NCBI GenBank assembly: GCA_947176535.1
Contig: CAMWQU010000009.1
Coordinates: 1 to 64,000 of the forward strand
Reading direction: 5' to 3'
Length of the DNA stretch: 64,000 bases
From: an uncultured Prevotellaceae bacterium
Lineage (GTDB): Bacteria; Bacteroidota; Bacteroidia; Bacteroidales; Bacteroidaceae
The position numbers and the translations under genes are program-made. This document shows positions 669 through 26,336 of the stretch, piece after piece. The notes below the pieces were generated by a model. It worked only from the letters and a program-made list of their open reading frames with translations, did no database searches and had not been told where the DNA came from. Positions within the stretch are counted from its first letter, which is position 1; each line of letters starts with the position of its first letter.

Positions 669-1649
669 ATGGATAAACTGACGGAAATACGACAGCCGAT
701 AGAGGTTGAGCTGAAAGCATACAGAACGTTGTTTGAGGAGACCCTGCAGACGGACAATCCGCTGTTGCGCCTCGCGTTGCAGCATTTGCTGCAGCGACCC
801 GGGAAGATGATGCGCCCCATCCTGGTGCTACTGGCCGCACGGATGGCGGGAGAGGTGAACGAACGCGTGCTGCATGCTGCCGTTTCGCTGGAACTGCTGC
901 ATACGGCCTCGTTGGTACACGATGACGTGGTGGACGAGAGCGACCGGCGGAGAGGGCAGAAGTCGGTGAACGTTTTGCTCAACAACAAGGCGGCGGTTCT
1001 GGTAGGCGATTTCCTACTTTCCAAAGCCTTGTACCATGCTGCGGCCACGGGTTCGCAGAGGGTGGTCACGTGGGTGGCGGAACTGGGACAGACGCTGTCG
1101 GACGGTGAACTTCTTCAACTCGCAAATCTTGACAAAAAGGAAATATCGGAGGAGAATTACTACGACGTGATTCGCAAGAAGACGGCTTCGCTCTTCGCCA
1201 CCTGTGCCAAAACGGGTATGCTGTTGGCCGGAGGCAGCGAGGAGGATACGGAATGTCTGGACAAGTTCGGCGAATACGTGGGTATCTGCTTCCAGTTGCG
1301 TGATGATATTTTCGACTATGATGCGACCCGGGATGTCGGGAAACCCAGTGGAAATGACATGAGGGAAGGGAAACTGACTCTCCCCGTCATTCACGCCCTG
1401 ACGGCTGAGGAGGATGGAGAAATGTTTACATTGGCCCTGGATGTCCGGCAGGGTGAGGCAGACGATGAGGGGATTGCCCGATTGGTGGATTTTGCTATCC
1501 GGCAGGGTGGCATACGGTATGCAGAGGAGGCGATGGATAGGTATTCCCGTATGGCCGTGGATGTTCTCCCGACAGACGAAAACAGAGACCCGGCCGTTGT
1601 CGAATCTTTGTCAAAGTACGTGAATTTTGTTGTCGGACGAGACTTGTGA
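669..1649 (+). CDS. ispB: Polyprenyl synthetase family protein (trans-prenyltransferase)
   Basis: ORF with LVHDDVVDESDRRRG (first Asp-rich motif) and FQLRDDIFDYD (second Asp-rich motif). Confidence 0.88.
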   Translation: MDKLTEIRQPIEVELKAYRTLFEETLQTDNPLLRLALQHLLQRPGKMMRPILVLLAARMAGEVNERVLHAAVSLELLHTASLVHDDVVDESDRRRGQKSVNVLLNNKAAVLVGDFLLSKALYHAAATGSQRVVTWVAELGQTLSDGELLQLANLDKKEISEENYYDVIRKKTASLFATCAKTGMLLAGGSEEDTECLDKFGEYVGICFQLRDDIFDYDATRDVGKPSGNDMREGKLTLPVIHALTAEEDGEMFTLALDVRQGEADDEGIARLVDFAIRQGGIRYAEEAMDRYSRMAVDVLPTDENRDPAVVESLSKYVNFVVGRDL

Positions 1650-1676
1650 ATGCTTTCCGGAGGCCTCCCAGATGCA

Positions 1677-1764
1677 AGGGGGAGGACGACCAAGCTCCGT
1701 CCATAGCAGGACAGAGGCTTGTCCATAGCGGGACGGAGCCTCGACAATAGGAGGATTAAGGCCC
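1677..1764. repeat. 22-nt-lattice dyad array 1
   Basis: GTCCATAGCAGGAC 1699, GTCCATAGCGGGAC 1721, GACAATAGGAGGAT 1743: 14-nt dyads spaced exactly 22 nt; degenerate units at 1677 and 1765. Confidence 0.8.
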
Positions 1765-1808
1765 GACCTTATAGGCGATGAATTTGGATGCCTATAGGGT
1801 CGGGCCTT
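1758..1808. terminator. Long hairpin between convergent genes, probable bidirectional terminator
   Basis: AAGGCCCGACCTTATAGGC / GCCTATAGGGTCGGGCCTT inverted repeat followed by a T-rich stretch. Confidence 0.8.
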
Positions 1809-1832
1809 GATTTTTGTGTACAGAGTGCTCCG

Positions 1833-2717
1833 TTAAAGGGCAATCAGCTCATACAACTTGTCGAGTCGGGGAGCGATGATGATTTCCGTGCGGCGGTTCC
1901 GCGCACGACCTTCCGCAGCCTTGTTGGAATCCACGGGCTTGAACTCGCCGCGTCCGCAGGGCAGTATCTGTAACGGATTAACAGTGTAAACCTCTGTAAG
2001 AATGCGGACTACACTGGTTGCACGGATGACACTGAGGTCCCAGTTGTCCTGGAATACAGCCGTCTTAATGGGTATGCTGTCCGTATGTCCTTCGATGAAG
2101 ACGTCAATGTCGGTCTGCCGGTTCAGCACCTCGGCCAGTTTGCCTAAGGCCTGCTTGCCTTGTGCATTCACGACGGCCTTGCCGGACTCGAAGAGTAACT
2201 TGTCGCTCATGGCCACATACACCTTGCCGCCTTCCTCGCGCACGGTCAGTTCGTCGCTACTGAATCCGTTGAGGGCCTGCTTCAGGTTGTCGAGCAGCGA
2301 TCTCACGCGTTGGTTCTGCTCATTGACAATTCCCTGCAACTGCTGGATGGTGTGCTGGCGCTCGTCCAATTCCTGCATCCGTTGGTTGAGCTGATTCATC
2401 AGGTCTTCCTTCTCGCTCTTATTCGCACTGAGCATTGTTTGGTAGTTCCGGATGCCCTTGCGCAGTTGGGTAGTGTCTTCCATGAGATTGTTGTGGTCGC
2501 GGGTCAAGGCATTGAACTTTTCCGTCAGGGCACCGAAGTCTTTGTTCAGTGCGGCAAAGTCGGTGCGTGAGGTGGCGAGCAATCCTTCCAGACTGTCGCG
2601 ACTGTAGATGGCAGCCAGTCGGCCGTTCTCTGCAATGTCATATTTTTTCTGACTGACCAGACAAGAGGTCATCAGTAGGGGGAAAAATGCCCCAAATAAC
2701 CATTTCATGCTTTTCAT
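1833..2717 (-). CDS. OmpA family lipoprotein with coiled coil
   Basis: Signal/lipobox LLMTSC; C-terminal OmpA motif IDVFIEGHTDSIPI...NWDLSVIRATSVVRIL. Confidence 0.85.
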   Translation of the reverse strand: MKSMKWLFGAFFPLLMTSCLVSQKKYDIAENGRLAAIYSRDSLEGLLATSRTDFAALNKDFGALTEKFNALTRDHNNLMEDTTQLRKGIRNYQTMLSANKSEKEDLMNQLNQRMQELDERQHTIQQLQGIVNEQNQRVRSLLDNLKQALNGFSSDELTVREEGGKVYVAMSDKLLFESGKAVVNAQGKQALGKLAEVLNRQTDIDVFIEGHTDSIPIKTAVFQDNWDLSVIRATSVVRILTEVYTVNPLQILPCGRGEFKPVDSNKAAEGRARNRRTEIIIAPRLDKLYELIAL

Positions 2718-2865
2718 TCTCTATTTCATTTAAAATCGTTTTACATTTGAATGCCTCTTATTTTCCGAGAATCAATAATTTACGTCTATTTTGACGCTCT
2801 GAGAATCGCGCAGAATAATTTTCGCGGGCAAATGGCCGTAAATTTTGAACTCTCAGAGGGGAAAA

Positions 2866-3804
2866 TCAGAAGAATTTTATCTCCTGACCTTCGACTTCGC
2901 TCAGAAGCAGATTGGCCAGTCTGCTCGTGCCGAGGCGGAGGTACTGGTTCGTCAGCCAACGCTCGCCGAGGATTTCTTTCACGATGGTGTAGTAGACCAG
3001 TGCGTCGTGGACGGTGTTGAGTCCGCCCGCTGGCTTGAAGCCAATTTGGATTCCGGTCTTGTCGTAATACTCCTTAATGGCCCGGCACATGACGTAGGCT
3101 GCCTCGGGAGTGGCGGCGGGCTTCTCCTTGCCCGTGCTCGTCTTGATGTAGTCGGCACCGGCGTACATGGCGAGGATGCTGGCTTTCTTGATGTTCTCGG
3201 CAGAGCCTAACAGACCCGTCTCAAGAATGACTTTCAGCTTTCGTTCGCCGCACAGGTTCTTGAGTTCGGCAATCTCGTCACACACGGTTTCGTAGTCGCC
3301 GGAAAGGAATTTTCCCACGCTCATAACCATGTCGATTTCCGTAGCTCCGTCTTTCAGGGCCAAAGCCGTCTCGGCGATTTTCACCTCCATGAGAGCTTGG
3401 CTCGACGGGAAACTGCCGCTGACGCAGGCTACCTCCACGCCTTCTATCTCCAGACTGCGGCTGACGATGCTTGCAAAACAGGGGTAGACACAGATGGTGG
3501 CGACGTGGGGTAGGGCAGGGTAGGCCTCCTCGAACTGATTGACGCGCTCTGTAAAGGCCAGCACGCTTTCGTCCGAATCGGTGGTCTTCAGCGTAGTGAG
3601 TTCCACGCTGCCCATCAGGAATTTCTTCACCTCCGGAGTGTCGTTTTCGGGCACTTTTTCCTCGATGAGGCGGGCCACTTCCCGGGCTACCTGTTCGTCG
3701 CTCAGGTGAGTTTCATACAGGGCCAGTGCCTGTTCATACTTGTTCGGTTCTTCCACGTGATAGTGGTCGTGGTGCTCATGACCGCAATTACAATGTTCGC
3801 TCAT
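2866..3804 (-). CDS. deoC: Deoxyribose-phosphate aldolase
   Basis: VKVILETGLL-type, GADYIKTSTGK and GFKPAGGL motifs of DeoC. Confidence 0.92.
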   Translation of the reverse strand: MSEHCNCGHEHHDHYHVEEPNKYEQALALYETHLSDEQVAREVARLIEEKVPENDTPEVKKFLMGSVELTTLKTTDSDESVLAFTERVNQFEEAYPALPHVATICVYPCFASIVSRSLEIEGVEVACVSGSFPSSQALMEVKIAETALALKDGATEIDMVMSVGKFLSGDYETVCDEIAELKNLCGERKLKVILETGLLGSAENIKKASILAMYAGADYIKTSTGKEKPAATPEAAYVMCRAIKEYYDKTGIQIGFKPAGGLNTVHDALVYYTIVKEILGERWLTNQYLRLGTSRLANLLLSEVEGQEIKFF

Positions 3805-3806
3805 AA

Positions 3807-4151
3807 TTATTGTAGTTTAAGATTATTCTTGTGTCTGTCTTTGTCTCGTAAAGTCTTTTTTCGGAAACTCTCCTCCAGTGCCTCGGTAAGGTCTACGCCC
3901 GTCTGGTTGGCTAAGCAAAGAAGCACCCAAAGCACGTCGGCCATCTCTTCCCGGAGGGCTTTTTCTCCGTTGTCGGAGGCGCGAGGGTCGGTCGGTTTCC
4001 ACGACTGTTCGCCGTATTTCCGGGCCATTATGCGAGCCAATTCGCCCACTTCTTCGGTCAGTACCGTCATATTGGTGAGTTCCGAGAAGTAACGTACTCC
4101 GTATGCTTTAATCCATTTGTCCACATGCTCTTGGGCCTCTTTTATTGTCAT
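3807..4151 (-). CDS. MazG-like nucleotide pyrophosphohydrolase
   Basis: EEVGELARIMARKYG ... EEMADVLWVLLCLANQTGVDL: MazG EExxE/D signature. Confidence 0.85.
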   Translation of the reverse strand: MTIKEAQEHVDKWIKAYGVRYFSELTNMTVLTEEVGELARIMARKYGEQSWKPTDPRASDNGEKALREEMADVLWVLLCLANQTGVDLTEALEESFRKKTLRDKDRHKNNLKLQ

Positions 4152-4169
4152 TTTGCTTTATCTTAGCGG

Positions 4170-4622
4170 TTATTCCTTGTTTTTCGTGTCCATGCAGATG
4201 GTGACCGGCCCGTCGTTCAGTAATGAAACCTGCATATCAGCCCCGAATTCTCCCGTTCCGATGGGTTTGCCGAGACGGGCGGAGATATGCCGGCAGAATG
4301 CCTCGTAGAGGGGTATGGAGATGTCCGGGCGTGCTGCACGGATGTAGCTGGGGCGGTTGCCTTTCCGGGTGGAGGCCATCAGTGTGAATTGGCTGACGAC
4401 GATGATGTCGCCTCCGGTTTCCAAGATGCTGCGGTTCATTACTCCGTTTTCATCGTTGAAGATGCGCAGATCCGTTATCTTTCGGCACAGCCAGTCGATG
4501 TCTTCCTGACCGTCGGCTTCTTCTATACCCAATAAAACGAGCAGTCCCTCGCCAATGCAACTTTTTACCTGTCCCCGAATGGACACACGGGCTTCTTTTA
4601 CACGCTGGACAACTACTCTCAT
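4170..4622 (-). CDS. dtd: D-aminoacyl-tRNA deacylase
   Basis: MRVVVQRVKEARVSI...; SQFTLMAST and NDGPVTICMDT motifs. Confidence 0.93.
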   Translation of the reverse strand: MRVVVQRVKEARVSIRGQVKSCIGEGLLVLLGIEEADGQEDIDWLCRKITDLRIFNDENGVMNRSILETGGDIIVVSQFTLMASTRKGNRPSYIRAARPDISIPLYEAFCRHISARLGKPIGTGEFGADMQVSLLNDGPVTICMDTKNKE

Positions 4623-4651
4623 GACGTAAAAATTTAATTTACGGTGCTAAA

Positions 4652-6478
4652 TTATCGCTTTTTATCGGCTTGTGCAAGGGCGTCACGGATAATTTTTGCT
4701 TTATTAACGCCTATAACATCTTTTAGTTCTTCCTCGGAGGCTTCGCGGATGCGTTGCACGCTGCGGAAATGTTTGATGAGGAGGTCACGTGTTCGTGGCC
4801 CTATGCCCTTTATTCCGTCTAATTCCGAAGCCACCTGATGCTTGCTGCGCTTCTGCCGGTGGAACGTGATGGCAAAGCGGTGTACCTCGTCCTGAATGCG
4901 TGTGAGCAGGTGGAAGAGGGGAGAGTCTATCTTCATGCCCACGACCTGCGGAGGGAAACCATAAAGCAGTTCGTGGGTGCGGTGGCGGTCGTCCTTAGCC
5001 AGTCCAGCGATGGGGATGTTAAGCCCTAATTCGTCCTCTATGACTTTTCGGATGACCTCCATCTGTCCCCGTCCTCCATCCGCTACAATGAGGTCGGGTA
5101 GGGGAGTGTTCTCCGTCTGCATGCGCGTGTATCGGCGGCGGACAACCTCCTGCATCGAGGCATAATCGTCAGGCCCCGTGACGGTCTTTATGATGTATTT
5201 TCGATAGTCTTTTTTCGACGGGCGGCCCATCTTGAATACCACGCAGGCGGCTACGGCATCGCTGCCTTGTGAGTTGCTGTTGTCGAAACACTCTATCGTC
5301 GCAGGCATCTTTTCCATGCCTAACAGTGTTTGTAGCTCTTTCATTAGACGAACGCCTTTCTGCTCCGGGTTGAGTTTGTCGGACTGATTGAGGCGGTCTT
5401 TTTTGTATTGCAGAACGTTCATTCTCGATAAGTCCAGCAACTTCTTTTTATCGCCCCGCTGCGGTATCGTAAACTCCACTCCTGCGAGCGATAACTCTAC
5501 GGGAAAGGGTATGATGATTTCCTTGCTTCGACTGGGATAACGCTTGCGCATTTCTCCGATGCCGAGGACTAAGAGTTCTTCGGGTGACTCGTCGAGACGC
5601 TTTCCTAATTCAAAGGTGAAAGCCTGCGTAATGCACCCGTTCGTGACGTGCAGATAGTTGATGTAGGCCTCTTTTTCGCCGGCCTCTATGTTGTAAACAT
5701 CCACATTCGTCACCACATTGCTTACCACTTCGCTCTTGCTTCGGTAGTTTTCCAGAAGCAGGTATTTGCGTTTCACCTGTTCGGCCTCCTCAAAACGGAG
5801 TTCTTCCGCCAGTTGCAGCATCTTTTCGCGCAGTGCTTTCTCAATGTCTCGGGTATTGCCTTTCAGTATCTCCTTGGCTTCGTCTATCCACTGCATATAT
5901 TCCTCGTGACTGACTTTGCCGATACAGATTCCTCCGCAATTCCGGATGTGGTAATCGAGGCATTCGCGATACCTATTATGTGCCACGCCCTCGGCGGTTA
6001 TGGGCATCTTGCATCGTCGCAACGGGTATAGGTTGTGGATGAGTTCAAGTAGCATGTGCATTGTCGGAACGTGGCTGTATGGGCCGAAATACGTGCCGTA
6101 GCGTTTATTGATTTTCCGGGTCTGAAAGATGCGTGGAAAATACTCATTTGTGACGATTATCGACGGATATGTTTTGCCGTCTTTCAGCAGAATGTTGTAC
6201 TTGGGATTCCACTGTTTGATGAGGTTGTTCTCCAATAAAAGTGCATCTTCCTCCGTATTGACCACAATATACTTTATGTCACGAATGCTTTCCACCAGAC
6301 GGGCTGTTTTCAGACTCTGGTGTTCTTTTCGGAAATACGACAGAACGCGTCGCCGAAGCCTTTTTGCCTTGCCCACATAGATGATGGTGCCCTTTTCGTC
6401 GAGATACTGATAGCAGCCCGGCGAATCGGGTAGACTGTGTACTATGCCCGACAAGTAGTTTTTTGTTTCTTCGGTCAT
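4652..6478 (-). CDS. uvrC: UvrABC system protein C
   Basis: SLPDSPGCYQYLDEKGTIIYVGKAKRLRRRVLSYF GIY-YIG domain; C-terminal HhH. Confidence 0.96.
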   Translation of the reverse strand: MTEETKNYLSGIVHSLPDSPGCYQYLDEKGTIIYVGKAKRLRRRVLSYFRKEHQSLKTARLVESIRDIKYIVVNTEEDALLLENNLIKQWNPKYNILLKDGKTYPSIIVTNEYFPRIFQTRKINKRYGTYFGPYSHVPTMHMLLELIHNLYPLRRCKMPITAEGVAHNRYRECLDYHIRNCGGICIGKVSHEEYMQWIDEAKEILKGNTRDIEKALREKMLQLAEELRFEEAEQVKRKYLLLENYRSKSEVVSNVVTNVDVYNIEAGEKEAYINYLHVTNGCITQAFTFELGKRLDESPEELLVLGIGEMRKRYPSRSKEIIIPFPVELSLAGVEFTIPQRGDKKKLLDLSRMNVLQYKKDRLNQSDKLNPEQKGVRLMKELQTLLGMEKMPATIECFDNSNSQGSDAVAACVVFKMGRPSKKDYRKYIIKTVTGPDDYASMQEVVRRRYTRMQTENTPLPDLIVADGGRGQMEVIRKVIEDELGLNIPIAGLAKDDRHRTHELLYGFPPQVVGMKIDSPLFHLLTRIQDEVHRFAITFHRQKRSKHQVASELDGIKGIGPRTRDLLIKHFRSVQRIREASEEELKDVIGVNKAKIIRDALAQADKKR

Positions 6479-11297: not shown

Positions 11298-11305
11298 TAA
11301 CTTTG
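11298..11305 (+). promoter_or_regulatory. Bacteroidales -7 element TAACTTTG for RNA copy 1
   Basis: Matches TAnnTTTG immediately 5' of the conserved CAC start of the RNA. Confidence 0.65.
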
Positions 11306-11562
11306 CACGTGGATATCCGTCTTGTGCGGTATCCGTGACATAATGTAAAAGAAGCGTTTTTGCTTAATCCTTTATCCGAAAATTCGCCAAAAATTATCAG
11401 AGGGAAAGAGCAGTCAAAAAGGCGCCTCGACTTGTCGTATATCCATTCCCCGCAAGGGAACACCGATATCCGGGCAAGGCGTAGGAATGGACTGTTTGTT
11501 TCTGATTGGGCGTTTGGCGATGCCTCGGATAAGATAAACGGCACATCGTCCTACGCTTTTTT
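11306..11562 (+). ncRNA. Structured leader/small RNA, family copy 1
   Basis: 5' hairpin CACGTGGATA/TATCCGTG; TCGCCAAA (11384) pairs TTTGGCGA (11513); CCATTCC (11443)/GGAATGG (11484); GGGC/GCCT closing the conserved loop; GCGTAGGA (11479)/TCCTACGC (11549) followed by TTTTTT. Confidence 0.75.
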
Positions 11563-11630
11563 ATGTCACTTCGGTTATAAATGATGTCGCGATGAGGGCG
11601 TGGGTGACAACGGACAAACGCTGAAAGGAA

Positions 11631-11970: not shown

Positions 11971-12002
11971 TTTGCTTATACGGGATATTTGTCTTAATTT
12001 TG
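11971..12002 (+). promoter_or_regulatory. Bacteroidales promoter of RNA copy 2 (TTTG-N20-TAATTTTG)
   Basis: TTTG at 11971-11974 and TAATTTTG at 11995-12002. Confidence 0.7.
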
Positions 12003-12005
12003 CGG

Positions 12006-12249
12006 TGCACAAGTTACTTGTGCGGACATAAAAGAAGCGTTTCGTGCTTTATCCTTTCAAGGGAAATCGCCAATTTCAAACAACGAAGGAGAAAAGCAGT
12101 CACCGGACGCTCACGTGTGTCGTATATCCACTCCCCGACACGGGAGGTGCTGATATTCGGTGTGGCGTGGGAGTGGACTGTTTATTTCGTTGTCGGGCGT
12201 TTGGCGATGCCTCCCTTGAAGATAAACAAGAAGTCATTCCACGCTTTTT
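12006..12249 (+). ncRNA. Structured leader/small RNA, family copy 2
   Basis: GCACAAG tta CTTGTGC 5' hairpin; ATCGCCAA (12066)/TTGGCGAT (12201); CCACTCC (12128)/GGAGTGG (12170); GTTTAT/ATAAAC; GCGTGGGA (12165)/TTCCACGC (12237) then TTTTT. Confidence 0.75.
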
Positions 12250-12305
12250 CCGTATAAATGGATTAACCGTCGAATCGGGAATGGAGGAGACACCGAAAAA
12301 CTGCT

Positions 12306-19246: not shown

Positions 19247-20074
19247 ATGATACACTGGAATCCGGAGATATTCGCCTTTCACATCGGTTCGTTCGGTGTA
19301 CGTTGGTATTCGCTATGTTGGGCCATCGGTCTTTTCTCGGTCTATCTGTTAGAACATAAACTCTATCGTGAGCAGCGTGTTCCCGAAGAAAAGTTTGAAC
19401 CGTTGGTATTCTATTGCTTCTTCGGCATACTCATAGGTGCCCGTTTGGGCCATTGCCTGTTTTATGAACCCGATTACTTCCTGGCCCATCCTTTAGAAAT
19501 GGTGCTTCCCATGAAGCAGGATGCCATGGGAGCGTGGCATTATACGGGCTATGAGGGACTGGCCAGCCACGGCGGCACACTGGGACTTATGCTTGCACTC
19601 ATCCTCTTTGTCCGCAAGACGGGCCTGCGACTGCTTATGGTGCTTGACAACATCGCTATTGTCACACCCATCTGTGCCTGTGCCATACGTTTGGGCAATC
19701 TGATGAACTCGGAAATCATTGGACGTCCCACCGACGTACCTTGGGCTTTCATCTTCGAGCGTATCGACCTGACTCCGCGTCATCCCGGACAACTCTACGA
19801 GGCTCTTTGTTACGCCCTATTCTTCGGCATTCACTGGTATTTCTATCGCAAGAGTCCAAAGAAAGTGGGCACGGGCTTTTTCTTCGGCCTCTGTCTTACG
19901 CTTATCTTCACGGCCCGCATCTTCATAGAGTACACCAAGGAAAACCAAGTGGACTTTGAGAACGGTATGCTGTTCAACATGGGACAGCTCCTCAGCGTTC
20001 CTTTTGTGCTGCTGGGTGCATGGTGTATGTGGCGGAACCGGAAACAGACTACATCACCTCAAGGTAAAAACTGA
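19247..20074 (+). CDS. lgt: Prolipoprotein diacylglyceryl transferase
   Basis: SLCWAIGLFSVYLL..., GLASHGGTLG, RLGNLMNSEIIGRPTDVPWAFIF, HPGQLYEAL. Confidence 0.96.
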   Translation: MIHWNPEIFAFHIGSFGVRWYSLCWAIGLFSVYLLEHKLYREQRVPEEKFEPLVFYCFFGILIGARLGHCLFYEPDYFLAHPLEMVLPMKQDAMGAWHYTGYEGLASHGGTLGLMLALILFVRKTGLRLLMVLDNIAIVTPICACAIRLGNLMNSEIIGRPTDVPWAFIFERIDLTPRHPGQLYEALCYALFFGIHWYFYRKSPKKVGTGFFFGLCLTLIFTARIFIEYTKENQVDFENGMLFNMGQLLSVPFVLLGAWCMWRNRKQTTSPQGKN

Positions 20075-20348
20075 CGGGACGGAAACCGTCGTTGCAGCTA
20101 ATCATGGCACTCATGGGATTCTGCATCCATCCGTCGTAAAAGTTGCCTACGCCGTGGGCCAGTGATTCCACAAAGGGCCGCATCGTCTCCCACGCCGAAG
20201 GACAAAGCCCTGCGGGCCGCTCGCCGTCCACCGACACCCATTGCTGTCCGACCGTGACGTCGCAGGTATGTTCTATCTTGTTCTCGTAACGGGCCATCAG
20301 GTCTTCGTAGACAGTCTGGCGCATGGCCGTAATGCGTACTGCGTTCAT
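20049..20348 (-). CDS. TIGR04076-like family protein
   Basis: PAGLCPSAWETMRPFVESLAHGVGNFYDGWMQNPMSAMISCNDGFRPVSFYLE resembles this family; 26-nt convergent overlap with lgt. Confidence 0.65.
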   Translation of the reverse strand: MNAVRITAMRQTVYEDLMARYENKIEHTCDVTVGQQWVSVDGERPAGLCPSAWETMRPFVESLAHGVGNFYDGWMQNPMSAMISCNDGFRPVSFYLEVM

Positions 20349-20440: not shown

Positions 20441-20569
20441 GCCCCGTATGGGCGCGTTTCGGTCCCGCTATGGACGCGCCCTCGACAATACTATTGTCTG
20501 CCCTCCGTCCCGCTATGGACGAGAGCCCGTCCATAGCGGGGCTGCAAACCGGCTCCGCACCGCGTGTGT
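20441..20569. repeat. Dyad array 2 = left 128-bp direct repeat (20442-20569) of the lgt-mutS cassette
   Basis: GTCCCGCTATGGAC 20462, GACAATACTATTGTC 20484, GTCCCGCTATGGAC 20507, GTCCATAGCGGGGC 20529; partner repeat at 23468-23595. Confidence 0.9.
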
Positions 20570-20688
20570 CATTATATTCCAGTTAAAGATTATTATTTTC
20601 TTAATGTCACATCTTAACTTTATACACTATCTTATTTATTTATGAAGAAAATACAGCCTCAATGGGGCGTAGATTGTAAAATATTTCG

Positions 20689-20696
20689 TAACTTTG
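20689..20696 (+). promoter_or_regulatory. -7 element TAACTTTG for RNA copy 3
   Basis: TAnnTTTG just 5' of the (G)CAC start, as in the other copies. Confidence 0.55.
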
Positions 20697-21035
20697 GCAC
20701 TGGATATGGAAGTCCTGTGACTGAAATACCCGCAAGATAAGGCTAAAGTTGCTTGTCCTGATATCGAAATCGCCAAAATAATCGCTGAAGGATATTGCAA
20801 TCTGACGCTCCTCTTTTTCATCTTTGAAGAAGAGCCATTGTATCACATCCATCAGGAGTGATGCATATTTAGGCTTTAATTCATGGTGAAATTGGGGAGT
20901 GGCCGTAACGGAATCTGAATCAACCCAGATACGAGACGGCGTAATGGTTGTATTTTCTTCAGCTTTGCACCTCAGCGAGGTGTTTGGCGATGCCTGATAT
21001 CGGTGTAGAGCGAGTAAGTCTCCTTTACGCCTTTT
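20697..21035 (+). ncRNA. Structured leader/small RNA, family copy 3 (divergent, longer)
   Basis: CACtGGA/TCCtGTG 5' hairpin; ATCGCCAAA (20769)/TTTGGCGAT (20983); AGGT/GCCT closing the conserved GTTTGGCGAT loop; GGCGTAA (20938)/TTACGCC (21025) then TTTT. Confidence 0.65.
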
Positions 21036-21108
21036 CTTGTGTCCAATCGTTACTGAAATTGCAGGAAATAGAGACTTGTTCCGGCAGTCATAATAATACT
21101 ATAAATCA

Positions 21109-22125
21109 ATGAACCAATCATTAGCAACATTTGGTTTGACCAAGGAACAGCTTCAGATCCTGTTCAGTTTAGAATGTCATATGGTGAACAAGGATCGCTA
21201 TGTCAAAGAGCGGTTTGTAGACCATATCAATCCATTGGTAGCCGACAACTCAAAGAAAAGCACATGGTATGTTGCTTTTCAGCGTAATCTTTCCAACTAT
21301 CTTATAGAGCAATCTCCAGAAGATAAATGGAACTCCATTCTTGCTCCGGAAGAGATACACCAACGAATCATTCAAGTATCGGCAACATCAGATACTGAAA
21401 TGTGGAAATATTTAATATTGTTGGAATGTGTTTTGTTTAGGCCTTATTTCCCAATGAATGAAGCTGACCAAAAAGATAAAAGATATAATGGGCTACGTTT
21501 CGATACCGAGACAAGAAAGCAAAGTCTTTCGGTTATTGCGGCATGGCTTGAGGTAGATGTTAAATATGTAGAACGGTTCGAAAACAGTTTTAAGAAGAAC
21601 ATAAAAAAGATGACGGGGTATTGGAATAAAGTACTCATCAGTGTAAGTGCCGGTGTAGCTGCGGCTGTTCTCGCTGTGGTAACTTGTGGTAGTTCAATAG
21701 CAGCATTCTTTGCAGCAGAAGGACTCTATGGTGCTGCTGCCGTAAGTTCCGGATTAGCCGCTCTCGGAGGTGGCGCAATTGCTGTTGGAGGGTTTGGAAT
21801 GGCCGGTGGAATGGCTGTTCTTGTCGGCGGAGGTGTGCTGCTTGGCCTCGGTGCCGGTGGCTCTGTAGGTATGGCAATTGCTTCTACCTCACCAAATGCT
21901 GTTTTGGGGGAGAATGCAAAGTTATGGGTTGTGCTTAAAGAGATTGTGATGGGAATCTTCAATGATACAAAACGTGCTCAGGATATTATCAGTACCTTAG
22001 CCGATAAAATTATGGCACTAAAGGAAGAAATTGCCCTGCTCAAGGTTCAACAAGAGGTGAATAAAGAAAGAATAAAGAACCTTGAGAAGTCTGTTTGCTA
22101 TATGGAGAAGATGATGAAAGCATGA
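21109..22125 (+). CDS. Accessory membrane protein with glycine/alanine-rich glycine-zipper-like hydrophobic region; function unknown
   Basis: Helical N-terminal half, then VSAGVAAAVLAVVTCGSS...GLAALGGGAIAVGGFGMAGGMAVLVGGGVLLGLGAGGSVGMAIA, then C-terminal coiled coil. Confidence 0.75.
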   Translation: MNQSLATFGLTKEQLQILFSLECHMVNKDRYVKERFVDHINPLVADNSKKSTWYVAFQRNLSNYLIEQSPEDKWNSILAPEEIHQRIIQVSATSDTEMWKYLILLECVLFRPYFPMNEADQKDKRYNGLRFDTETRKQSLSVIAAWLEVDVKYVERFENSFKKNIKKMTGYWNKVLISVSAGVAAAVLAVVTCGSSIAAFFAAEGLYGAAAVSSGLAALGGGAIAVGGFGMAGGMAVLVGGGVLLGLGAGGSVGMAIASTSPNAVLGENAKLWVVLKEIVMGIFNDTKRAQDIISTLADKIMALKEEIALLKVQQEVNKERIKNLEKSVCYMEKMMKA

Positions 22126-23363
22126 GTAAAGATGTGCCTTATATAAAAAACCTAAAGATTGAATCCTCGATAAAGAACGTCGAGGACTCAATCTCTGATA
22201 CGTTGTCTTCTTGTTCGGAATTCAGCGAGGTTGTCAATGTAGATGATGTAATTATTAGCAATCTTGAGACAAGAATTGCAGCTCTCATGACAAAAAATGG
22301 GATACCGCAACCTGAAAAAGAAGAAAAAACAAGCCATGTTAAATGTGAGACATCCGAGAAAGTACAAAAGACAGATATTCTACAAATAGATTGTGACTTA
22401 GTGGTATCTTGTGTCGCAGGAGGCTTGGCTGTATTGGTAGACTTCCTTGTTGTTAGAATCCCCAAAACAACAAATATAGTACGATGTGGAAAAGTTATTA
22501 ACCAGCAAGGAAGCCCGATGACTGAGGCTTTACGTAAAATAGGTTTCACGTCAGACGGTAAAACTGCCGGATGGGTTAAAACCTTAGAGTCTTTCTTTGG
22601 AGTTAATTACGATACATCTATAATAGCTGGAGAGAAAGGTTTTACTCCAAGGTCTCATCGATTGTACAGTCTGGCTCATGATCCTTCTCCTTCGGGCTTG
22701 TTATGGGCGTTAAAAGATGCTATAACCGGGACTACAAGCTATATTTCTCAGGACGGCATTCTCAAAAGTATTCCTACCAAACACGTCAGCGTATGGCGTA
22801 TTTTTGCGACACCTGTAATATGGATGGGACATATTCTTTCGGACATTTTTACAAAAGCAGGTGTTCCTATCCCAGGAAGTTGTCTCTTACGTACTCTTCA
22901 ATTCGGATCATTTGGAGAAAAAGGACGCACCATCGGCCAAGTAGTGGAGTATATGTATCTCGAAGGATATGATTTGCGCCATCTTGCTACTATGGCAACT
23001 GAGAAAGCAGTATTAGAATTTATAATTCGAGTATATCACTACCTTACGAAACCAACAATAGAGCAATTTGCCCGGCCTCAAGCTCTCATCCATATTGATT
23101 TAGAGAAACAGAACCGTCGGTTACAGAGTATGTGCCTGCAGGCATATGTGGTAGCCTCTTGTGGTAACGTAGCCAAACTTGCAATTTACCAATGGAACCC
23201 CACGGCACTTAATTTATCGGTATGGGTAGCCTTTTTCCGAACGGCTGTGACTGAATACAATCGGCGACATGGTTCAATGCAAGATGTTCTCGATACAATA
23301 GAGCAGCGTCAAATCATCAATGATCAATTTGATGCTATTGAGGCTAAATTAAATATGATCTAA
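22122..23363 (+). CDS. Accessory protein of unknown function, translationally coupled to the upstream gene
   Basis: MSKDVPYIKNLKIESSIKNVEDSI...; start ATG overlaps upstream stop (ATGA); HRLYSLAHDPSPSGLLWALKDAITG core. Confidence 0.75.
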   Translation: MSKDVPYIKNLKIESSIKNVEDSISDTLSSCSEFSEVVNVDDVIISNLETRIAALMTKNGIPQPEKEEKTSHVKCETSEKVQKTDILQIDCDLVVSCVAGGLAVLVDFLVVRIPKTTNIVRCGKVINQQGSPMTEALRKIGFTSDGKTAGWVKTLESFFGVNYDTSIIAGEKGFTPRSHRLYSLAHDPSPSGLLWALKDAITGTTSYISQDGILKSIPTKHVSVWRIFATPVIWMGHILSDIFTKAGVPIPGSCLLRTLQFGSFGEKGRTIGQVVEYMYLEGYDLRHLATMATEKAVLEFIIRVYHYLTKPTIEQFARPQALIHIDLEKQNRRLQSMCLQAYVVASCGNVAKLAIYQWNPTALNLSVWVAFFRTAVTEYNRRHGSMQDVLDTIEQRQIINDQFDAIEAKLNMI

Positions 23364-23466
23364 AAGAAGTTGTGATATTAGGATAGCAATCAATGTAAGG
23401 GCATACTTGTAAACTTGCTGTCTATTATCTTGTTTATTGCAGTCTTTTCTGTGATTTTACTCCCTA

Positions 23467-23595
23467 CCCCCGCATGGGCGCGTTTCGGTTCCGCTATGGA
23501 CGCGCCCTCGACAATAGTATTGTCTGCCCTCCGTCCCGCTATGGACGAAGCCCCGTCCATAGCGGGGCTGTAAACCGGCGTCGCGCCGCGTGTGT
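23467..23595. repeat. Dyad array 3 = right 128-bp direct repeat (23468-23595) of the cassette
   Basis: 118/128 identity by eye to 20442-20569, same orientation, no indels. Confidence 0.9.
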
Positions 23596-23732: not shown

Positions 23733-26336
23733 ATGGCCAAGACAGAAGGATTAACCCCGATGATGAAGCAGTTCTTCGACCTGAAGGCAAAGCATCCGGA
23801 TGCCATATTGCTGTTCCGGTGCGGCGACTTCTACGAGACGTACTGTCAGGATGCCATCGAGGCTTCGGCCATATTGGGCATAACGCTGACCAAACGGAAC
23901 AACGGCAGTGAAAACCCGACCGAGATGGCGGGTTTCCCCCATCATGCCTTGGACACCTATCTGCCTAAGTTGATAAGGGCCGGCCGACGGGTGGCCATTT
24001 GCGACCAATTGGAAGACCCGAAACTGACGAAGAAACTGGTGAAGCGCGGCATTACGGAATTGGTGACGCCGGGCGTTGCCATGAGCGACAATGTGCTTAA
24101 CTATAAGGAAAACAATTTCCTTGCGGCAGTCCATTTCGGGAAAGCCACCTGTGGCGTAGCCTTTCTGGACATCAGTACGGGTGAGTTCCTCTGTGCTGAG
24201 GGCACACCGGAGTTCGTGGAAAAGCTGATGGACAACTTTGTCCCGAAGGAAGTGCTCTTCGAACGGGGACGGCGGCCGCAGTTCGAGGGAGTGTTCGGAA
24301 CACGTCACTGCGTCTTCGAGATGGACGACTGGGTATTCACCGAGCAGTATGCCGTAAAGAAACTGACGAAGCACTTCGAGGTGAAGAACCTGAAAGGCTT
24401 TGGCGTCGAGCATCTGAAAAGCGGAATCGTGGCCAGTGGAGCCATCCTACAATACTTGGAAATCACGCAGCACATACAGATACGTCACATCACCTCGCTG
24501 CGCCGCATTGAAGAGGAACGCTTCGTCCGGCTCGATAAGTTCACTCTGCGCAGCCTGGAACTGTTAGGCTCGATGAGCGAGGAGGGCAAGTCGTTGTGCG
24601 ATGTCATGGATCGGACTATAACCCCCATGGGAGCCCGTATGCTACGACGCTGGATAACGTTTCCCCTGAAGGATGTCCGTCTCATTGAGCAACGCCTCGA
24701 CGTGGTGGATTATTACTTCCGGAAACCGGAATTTCGCGATTTCATCGAAGAAAGTCTGCATCCCATCAATGATTTGGAACGCATCATTTCGAAAGTGAAT
24801 GTCGGTCGTGTGTCACCCCGTGATGTCGTGCAGTTGAAGATTGCCTTGCAGACCGTGGAGAAAATCAAGCAGGCTTGTTCGGCCGCCGATAATGACATCA
24901 TCCGGCAAATCGGCGACCAGTTGAGTCCCTGCGCAGACATCCGCAACCGCATAGCCCGCGAGATTCAGCCCGACCCACCTCTTTTGGTGAACAAAGGCGG
25001 TGTTATCGCCAACGGCGTAAACGCAGAACTGGACGAACTGCGCAATATTGCCTATAACGGAAAGAACTACTTGCTGAAACTGCAACAGCAGGAAGCGGAG
25101 CGAACCGGCATTACCAGTCTGAAAATCGGTTACAACAACGTCTTCGGCTACTACCTTGAGGTAAGGAACACGTTCAAGGACAAAGTGCCGCAGGAGTGGG
25201 TGCGCAAGCAGACGCTGGCTCAGGCCGAACGCTACATCACGCAGGAACTGAAAGAGTATGAAGAGAAGATACTCGGTGCCGAGGACAAGATTCTGGCTTT
25301 GGAGACGCGCCTGTTCAACGAATTAGTGGTGACACTGGCCGAATACACTCCGCAAATACAAATCAATGCCAACCTCATTGCCCGGCTCGACTGCCTGCTT
25401 TCTTTCGCTCTTTCGGCCCGCGAGCACAACTACATCCGTCCCGTCGTGGATGATTCCTACATCATCGACATCCGCCAGGGTCGCCACCCCGTCATAGAAA
25501 TGCAGATGCCGGTGGGCGAACGCTATATCCCCAACGACGTTTTCTTAGACAACGAGACCCAGCAGATCATCATCATCACCGGCCCCAACATGGCCGGTAA
25601 GAGCGCGTTGCTCCGTCAGACGGCCATCATCACCCTGATGGCACAAATCGGTTGTTTCGTGCCGGCCGAACGTGCTCGCATCGGTATTGTGGACAAAATC
25701 TTCACCCGTGTCGGTGCCAGTGACAATATATCCATGGGCGAAAGTACCTTCATGGTGGAGATGAGCGAGGCTTCGAACATCCTCAACAATCTTTCGCCTC
25801 GTTCGTTGGTCATCTTCGACGAACTGGGACGGGGCACCAGCACCTATGACGGCATTTCCATTGCGTGGGCCATTGTCGAATACATCCACGAAAACCAGCG
25901 TGCCCATGCCCGCACGCTCTTCGCCACCCACTATCATGAGCTGAACGAAATGCAGCAGACCTACAACCGTATCAAGAACTTCAATGTCAGTGTGCGAGAG
26001 ATAGACGGTAAGGTCATCTTCCTGCGCAAATTAGAGCGTGGCGGCAGCGAACATTCTTTCGGCATCCACGTGGCCAAACTGGCAGGTATGCCCGGCAGCA
26101 TCGTGAAGCGCGCCGATCAGGTGCTCAAGCAGTTGGAAGCCACGAAGAACAGGGAAGTGGGCGGCAGCATTCAACTTACCAAGGTGCAGGACAACATGCA
26201 GATGAACTTTTTCCAGCTCGATGACCCCGTTCTGGCTCAGGTGCGTGACGAGATTCTCGGCCTCGACGTCGATAACCTTACCCCTTTGGAAGCCCTCAAC
26301 AAGCTCAATGACATCAAACGCATTGTAAAGGGATAA
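23733..26336 (+). CDS. mutS: DNA mismatch repair protein MutS
   Basis: [30 protein letters not shown]...[16 protein letters not shown]...[24 protein letters not shown] start 23592 is too far upstream. Confidence 0.97.

Follow-up and report, generated by a model that had tools for sequence, protein, structure and literature searches.

BrickBuilt, a MITE of Porphyromonas gingivalis built from a 23-bp minisatellite, is the known element closest to the repeats described here (PMC4596501). Both are species-restricted (ours within the genus sample), mostly intergenic and composed of 22/23-nt imperfect tandem units, and both display a variable number of units and recurrent end parts, the comparison being at the level of description. 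Its authors wrote that no exogenous or duplicated gene had so far been detected as an insertion in repeats of this kind (PMC4596501). The REP/BIME elements, including the CGTC superfamily, are likewise short intergenic palindromes that are present in many copies and often lie between convergent genes, and no dedicated transposase is known for the CGTC elements (PMC3733652). As to the cargo, Bunzi and Shango have been reported to have a TerB domain (PMC10952713).

The window analysed here, a stretch of 64,000 nucleotides, contains between lgt and mutS a putative Bunzi-type operon that is preceded by a structured RNA and bracketed by two repeat arrays. The features of this region, by position in the window, are as follows.

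19247..20074, + strand: lgt, the left chromosomal neighbour
20049..20348, - strand: orfX, a native gene for a TIGR04076-family protein
20442..20569, + strand: left repeat array, made of two 22/23-bp palindromic units and a hairpin with a 13-bp stem
20683..21046, + strand: structured leader RNA (copy 3 of the window), from its fold and homology
21109..22125, + strand: ORF1, 338 aa, conserved membrane partner of BnzB, from sequence comparison
22122..23363, + strand: ORF2, 413 aa, the Bunzi anti-phage protein BnzB (PADLOC PDLC03834, E=3.1e-48)
23468..23595, + strand: right repeat array, with 92% identity to its left counterpart
23733..26336, + strand: mutS, the right chromosomal neighbour

That the segment from 20442 to 23595 is an insertion is well supported, since BnzB was found in none of the 138 other genomes of the genus, the GC content shifts and the lgt-mutS interval is variable. 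The GC content from 20570 to 23467 is 0.405 versus 0.539 for the whole window, and 1350-bp stretches with a GC content below 0.45 occur nowhere in the window but in this 2.9-kb cassette. The shift coincides with the repeats on both sides, AT-rich DNA abutting both. The earlier note had described the cassette as AT-richer than its flanks, as enclosing a structured RNA and a two-gene operon (21109-23363), and as devoid of a transposase or integrase gene. All of this was confirmed: ORF1 and ORF2 are alone between the repeats, and neither the ORF list nor the family searches revealed a transposase or integrase there, no recombinase family being matched. On the minus strand, an ORF antisense to the leader (20640-21089) was dropped, as it has no homologue and overlaps the structured RNA.

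The lgt-mutS interval was compared across species, a check proposed in the earlier note, and other cargo or none was found in the relatives. In G091 lgt and mutS are 71 bp apart; G027 has a DUF4143 ATPase there and G001 two large genes; and in three related species (G096, G068 and G045) the same HigBA-type toxin-antitoxin pair directly precedes mutS. In G096, too, orfX is located between lgt and mutS, and in G068 (79%) it adjoins mutS. The compared relatives (one genome per species) carry neither of the flanking repeats, and the empty site with a single repeat that the earlier note had predicted was not seen among them. The arrangement that the note had named as contrary to its reading, a pair of repeats enclosing nothing, was not encountered either. 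With its content varying among relatives and no arrays present there, lgt-mutS is a hotspot at which insertion does not require arrays. A DUF4143 ATPase gene was also seen adjoining the Bunzi operon of G279, between direct repeats of ~165 bp that are 85-88% identical (L236 4456-4621 and 6153-6319). The neighbours of MutS are, by organism name, draft genomes of rumen Bacteroidaceae and Prevotellaceae, and the host of the cassette is an uncultured, probably rumen-dwelling relative of Prevotella.

The start of ORF2 overlaps the stop codon of ORF1 through ATGA, and the ORF2 product is 37-40% identical, over nearly its full length, to BnzB orthologues of Bacteroidaceae. ORF1, as read from its sequence, has a helical N-terminus, conserved Gly/Ala-rich membrane hairpins and a C-terminal coiled coil, and is 33-43% identical to the partner proteins of four other operons. 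At 31-43% identity, the gene pair is also present on a Priestia plasmid and in three Bacteroidaceae genomes (G194, G437, G279); no bracketing arrays of this kind were found at the three Bacteroidaceae loci. ORF1 itself gave no TerB match in Pfam and no BnzA match. It weakly matched the PADLOC candidate PDC-M09A, and a single one of its orthologues (L103) matched BnzA, also weakly (E=5e-4). Pfam, NCBIfam and PHROGs returned nothing solid for either ORF; weak matches to NheB, annexin and ribosomal L29 were discarded as coiled-coil or low-score, and a single-sequence AlphaFold2 model of ORF2 (pLDDT 34) was left unused. A first scan of the genome contigs with ORF2 as query yielded no relatives. 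Among 399 genomes of the family, BnzB was found in 13, including the present one, and its relatives are located on plasmids and phages. By these comparisons the operon appears to be a Bunzi-type anti-phage system, which presumably acts as a membrane-associated phage defence.

The leader RNA consists of a promoter-like start (TAACTTTG), a long rod-shaped fold and a terminator-like 3' end, and folding of the + strand from 20690 to 21080 gave a z of -8.5. It has GTTTGGCGATGCCT in common, at 11512 and 12199, with two related copies in the window, located at about 11305-11566 and 11998-12252. All three copies carry the signature ATCGCCAAA...GTTTGGCGATGCCT, and they lie ahead of a small HTH gene, a lipoprotein gene and the Bunzi operon, one copy each. 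Segments of the leader recur in two other leaders, one ahead of the G279 Bunzi operon and one ahead of a BnzB-like operon in G416; between these two, identity is 82% over 331 bp. Some compensatory changes were seen in a stem common to these RNAs, and further relatives occur in two more genomes (L123 and L169). Rfam gave no family for the leader RNA or for the arrays.

The flanking repeats are 128 nt long each, in direct orientation and 3026 nt apart from start to start. The earlier note had counted about 10 mismatches and no indels; alignment gave exactly 10 (positions 6, 23, 50, 82-84, 104, 113-114 and 118) and no indels, with a BLAST E of 1.4e-48, well beyond chance. The 13-bp stem of the hairpin (CCCGCTATGGACG / CGTCCATAGCGGG) has the same letters in both copies, three of the ten mismatches fall within the loop, and the hairpins are strong (z about -4.3). 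By inspection, no target-site duplication is present at the outer borders, where the flanks read ...AATTTCCATG and TTTCGGGCAG with no abutting direct repeat.

The suggestion that these repeats are dedicated att sites, private to the cassette, did not hold, as they are members of a dispersed family with at least 48 loci in the genome. This number combines the recoveries of BLAST and of a motif search and is an incomplete census. BLAST with the flanking repeat gave 52 matches in the genome, none of the further copies aligning over the full 128 bp, and the 13-mer CCCGCTATGGACG occurs 156 times with at most one mismatch, versus 11 times for the reversed control. The unit is 22/23 bp long, RTCC(C/T)GCTATKGWC followed by an 8-bp linker, and each unit is near-palindromic. 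The arrays are mostly intergenic, most commonly between convergent genes, and five more lie in the window (near 1700, 30200, 40480, 48550 and 60450). In 12 of the 48 arrays, a tail of alternating purines and pyrimidines is combined with a TTCCTTA end; the TTCCTTA tail is missing from both flanking copies. A strict double-unit pattern was found 74 times in the present genome, in none of the 138 other genomes of the genus and not in the control; viral contigs did not contain the array pattern. A distant member of the genus, G004, has dispersed arrays of a related 23-bp unit, the palindrome GACAATASTATTGTC plus 8 (e.g. L240-L245), with no close pairs among the array positions listed.

Only three array pairs lie within 6 kb of each other, and all three enclose accessory operons. 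The two outside the window are as follows.

L222 (G000:C6:38500-46000), 1353-5929: array-bracketed accessory operon of five genes on contig C6
L214 (G000:C4:50000-58000), 2173-5671: array-bracketed accessory operon on contig C4

The C6 operon encodes a 228-aa protein, YidD, an SPFH (Band_7_1) and GYF_2 protein, a 201-aa protein and a zinc-ribbon TPR protein. A close homologue was found in one of the 138 genomes of the genus (G077, 74%), where the homologous five-gene operon sits in another context; other full-length matches do not exceed 42%. The homology with G077 begins at L222:1646, ~70 bp past the left promoter, and ends with the final stop codon (5595), 43 bp short of the right bracket (the brackets being 1353-1574 and 5638-5929). 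The limits of the transferable unit are thus just within the brackets. The duplicated stretch takes in the promoter region, and the two arrays differ by one unit. The C4 operon encodes a TerB protein (PF05099, over the cut-off), a 425-aa protein and a lipoprotein. It has a GC content of 0.396 and lies between malQ (0.576) and tRNA-Met/lptG, and in 7 of 10 relatives lptG is found close to malQ, with nothing resembling the C4 operon between them.

We lean towards the view that the cassette was acquired horizontally and integrated via homologous recombination between arrays. The defence cassette, composed of the leader RNA and the Bunzi-type operon, would have entered the variable lgt-mutS interval horizontally, at or together with a resident array of the lineage-specific 22/23-bp family. 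Most likely, the incoming DNA would have carried the operon beside a copy of the array, and host homologous recombination between this copy and the array resident in the interval would have left the operon between two directly oriented arrays, no cassette-encoded recombinase being needed. Recombination between the two arrays could later delete the cassette. Array-mediated integration fits because the arrays are direct, no recombinase gene is present, no target duplication is seen by inspection and the insert is foreign, and a duplication of the repeat at insertion fits because the flanking pair ranks first in similarity among all 1128 pairs formed by the 48 arrays. Counting against this model are the 8% divergence of the copies, the close array pairs, which are not in excess, the C4 pair, which ranks only 182nd in similarity, the related arrays of G004, among whose listed positions no close pairs occur, and the array-free insertions at lgt-mutS. 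The divergence speaks against a recent duplication, unless the donor and resident arrays already differed. The earlier note had proposed insertion or excision by recombination between the repeats, or duplication of the target array: the insertion is supported, and we infer the recombination step, together with its direction, its date and the defence activity. Neither a recombinase nor an excised circle was found.

Three other mechanisms are less likely, and are given here in decreasing order of probability. The first of them, which we consider unlikely, is that the two arrays came independently of the operon, with the array family spreading into intergenic spacers in a MITE-like manner and two copies from the same recent source flanking the operon by chance. 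Arrays do disperse between unlinked places, as C1:84634 and C2:2534 are 88% identical over 139 bp. Their density is high, simple arithmetic giving ~6 expected close pairs versus the 3 found, and the C4 pair is not specially alike. On the other hand, the second most similar pair (C6:39899/44195, 93% over 116 bp) is in the same orientation and only 4.3 kb apart, so that the two most similar pairs are both close and direct, and both surround accessory operons. The probability that the top two would both be among the three pairs under 6 kb by chance is about 5e-6. Arrival by chance also sits poorly with AT-rich DNA that starts and stops at the repeats.

It is less probable still that the arrays are the ends of a composite MITE, with array, cassette and array moved as one unit by a transposase acting in trans. 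Similar mobile-looking elements bracket cargo at three places, and the tails and TTCCTTA ends that recur together in a quarter of the arrays give the element recurrent parts. Against this stand the outer borders without target duplication by inspection, the flanking copies without the TTCCTTA tail, the terminal inverted repeats of the BrickBuilt type, which were not found, and the Y1/REP-associated transposase PF01797, which is absent from the genome; this absence disfavours a resident REP transposase, though the genome is 85% complete. Improbable, too, is a site-specific system in which the arrays would be attC- or Xer/dif-like sites for a recombinase encoded elsewhere. The strong hairpins, in which the stems are unchanged and the changes fall in the loop, and the three bracketed cargos would be in keeping with such a system, but the units are degenerate in number and sequence, and the arrays are dispersed singletons rather than cassette arrays, around cassettes without integrase. 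Finally, the genome is a fragmented draft of 46 contigs, in which the repeats might have led short-read assembly to link an AT-rich piece to the chromosome, but this is highly improbable, because the longest exact run shared by the copies is 31 nt, the junctions lie inside a contig of 90,537 bp and the same layout is found on two other contigs.

Returning to array-mediated integration, the three bracketed operons suggest that the arrays serve as recombination landing sites for accessory operons. A broader proposal, which we put forward only tentatively, is that dispersed palindromic minisatellite arrays are a portable homology that captures and sheds accessory operons (Bunzi, TerB, SPFH), that is, a recombinase-free cassette system in uncultured Bacteroidaceae. 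A lone cassette would be ordinary; the three-fold pattern together with an uncharted array family is not. The observations bear on how short defence operons without integrase travel between chromosomes. If the arrays supply the homology, each array would be a predictable landing site, new accessory operons could be found between arrays, and any operon that acquires an array could land at dozens of intergenic sites.

Compared with known systems, the lgt-mutS interval resembles the core-gene defence hotspots in that the defence or toxin-antitoxin cargo found there differs between species, but neither an integrase nor a tRNA is present, and direct array repeats bracket the cargo in the present genome only. 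The operon resembles Bunzi in its two-gene structure with a BnzB-matching ORF2 and in its patchy, plasmid- or phage-borne relatives. It differs in the leader RNA ahead of it and in the short 338-aa partner, a PDC-M09A-like protein in place of one matching TerB in Pfam. Unlike the REP/BIME elements, the arrays are made of 14/15-bp palindromes repeated head to tail every 22 bp. The published CGTC families have other stem and loop lengths (PMC3733652), and the arrays differ from RAYT-mobilised REPs in that no RAYT gene (PF01797) was found in this genome, which is 85% complete. With regard to BrickBuilt, the units here are palindromic and occupy at least 48 loci versus 19, and none of the 48 arrays has the BrickBuilt terminal inverted repeats (GAGACCTT...AAGGTCTC), for which reason the arrays were not filed as BrickBuilt. 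The three bracketed operons are nevertheless candidates for gene insertion in BrickBuilt-type repeats and, if the proposal is true, would give such minisatellites a consequence.
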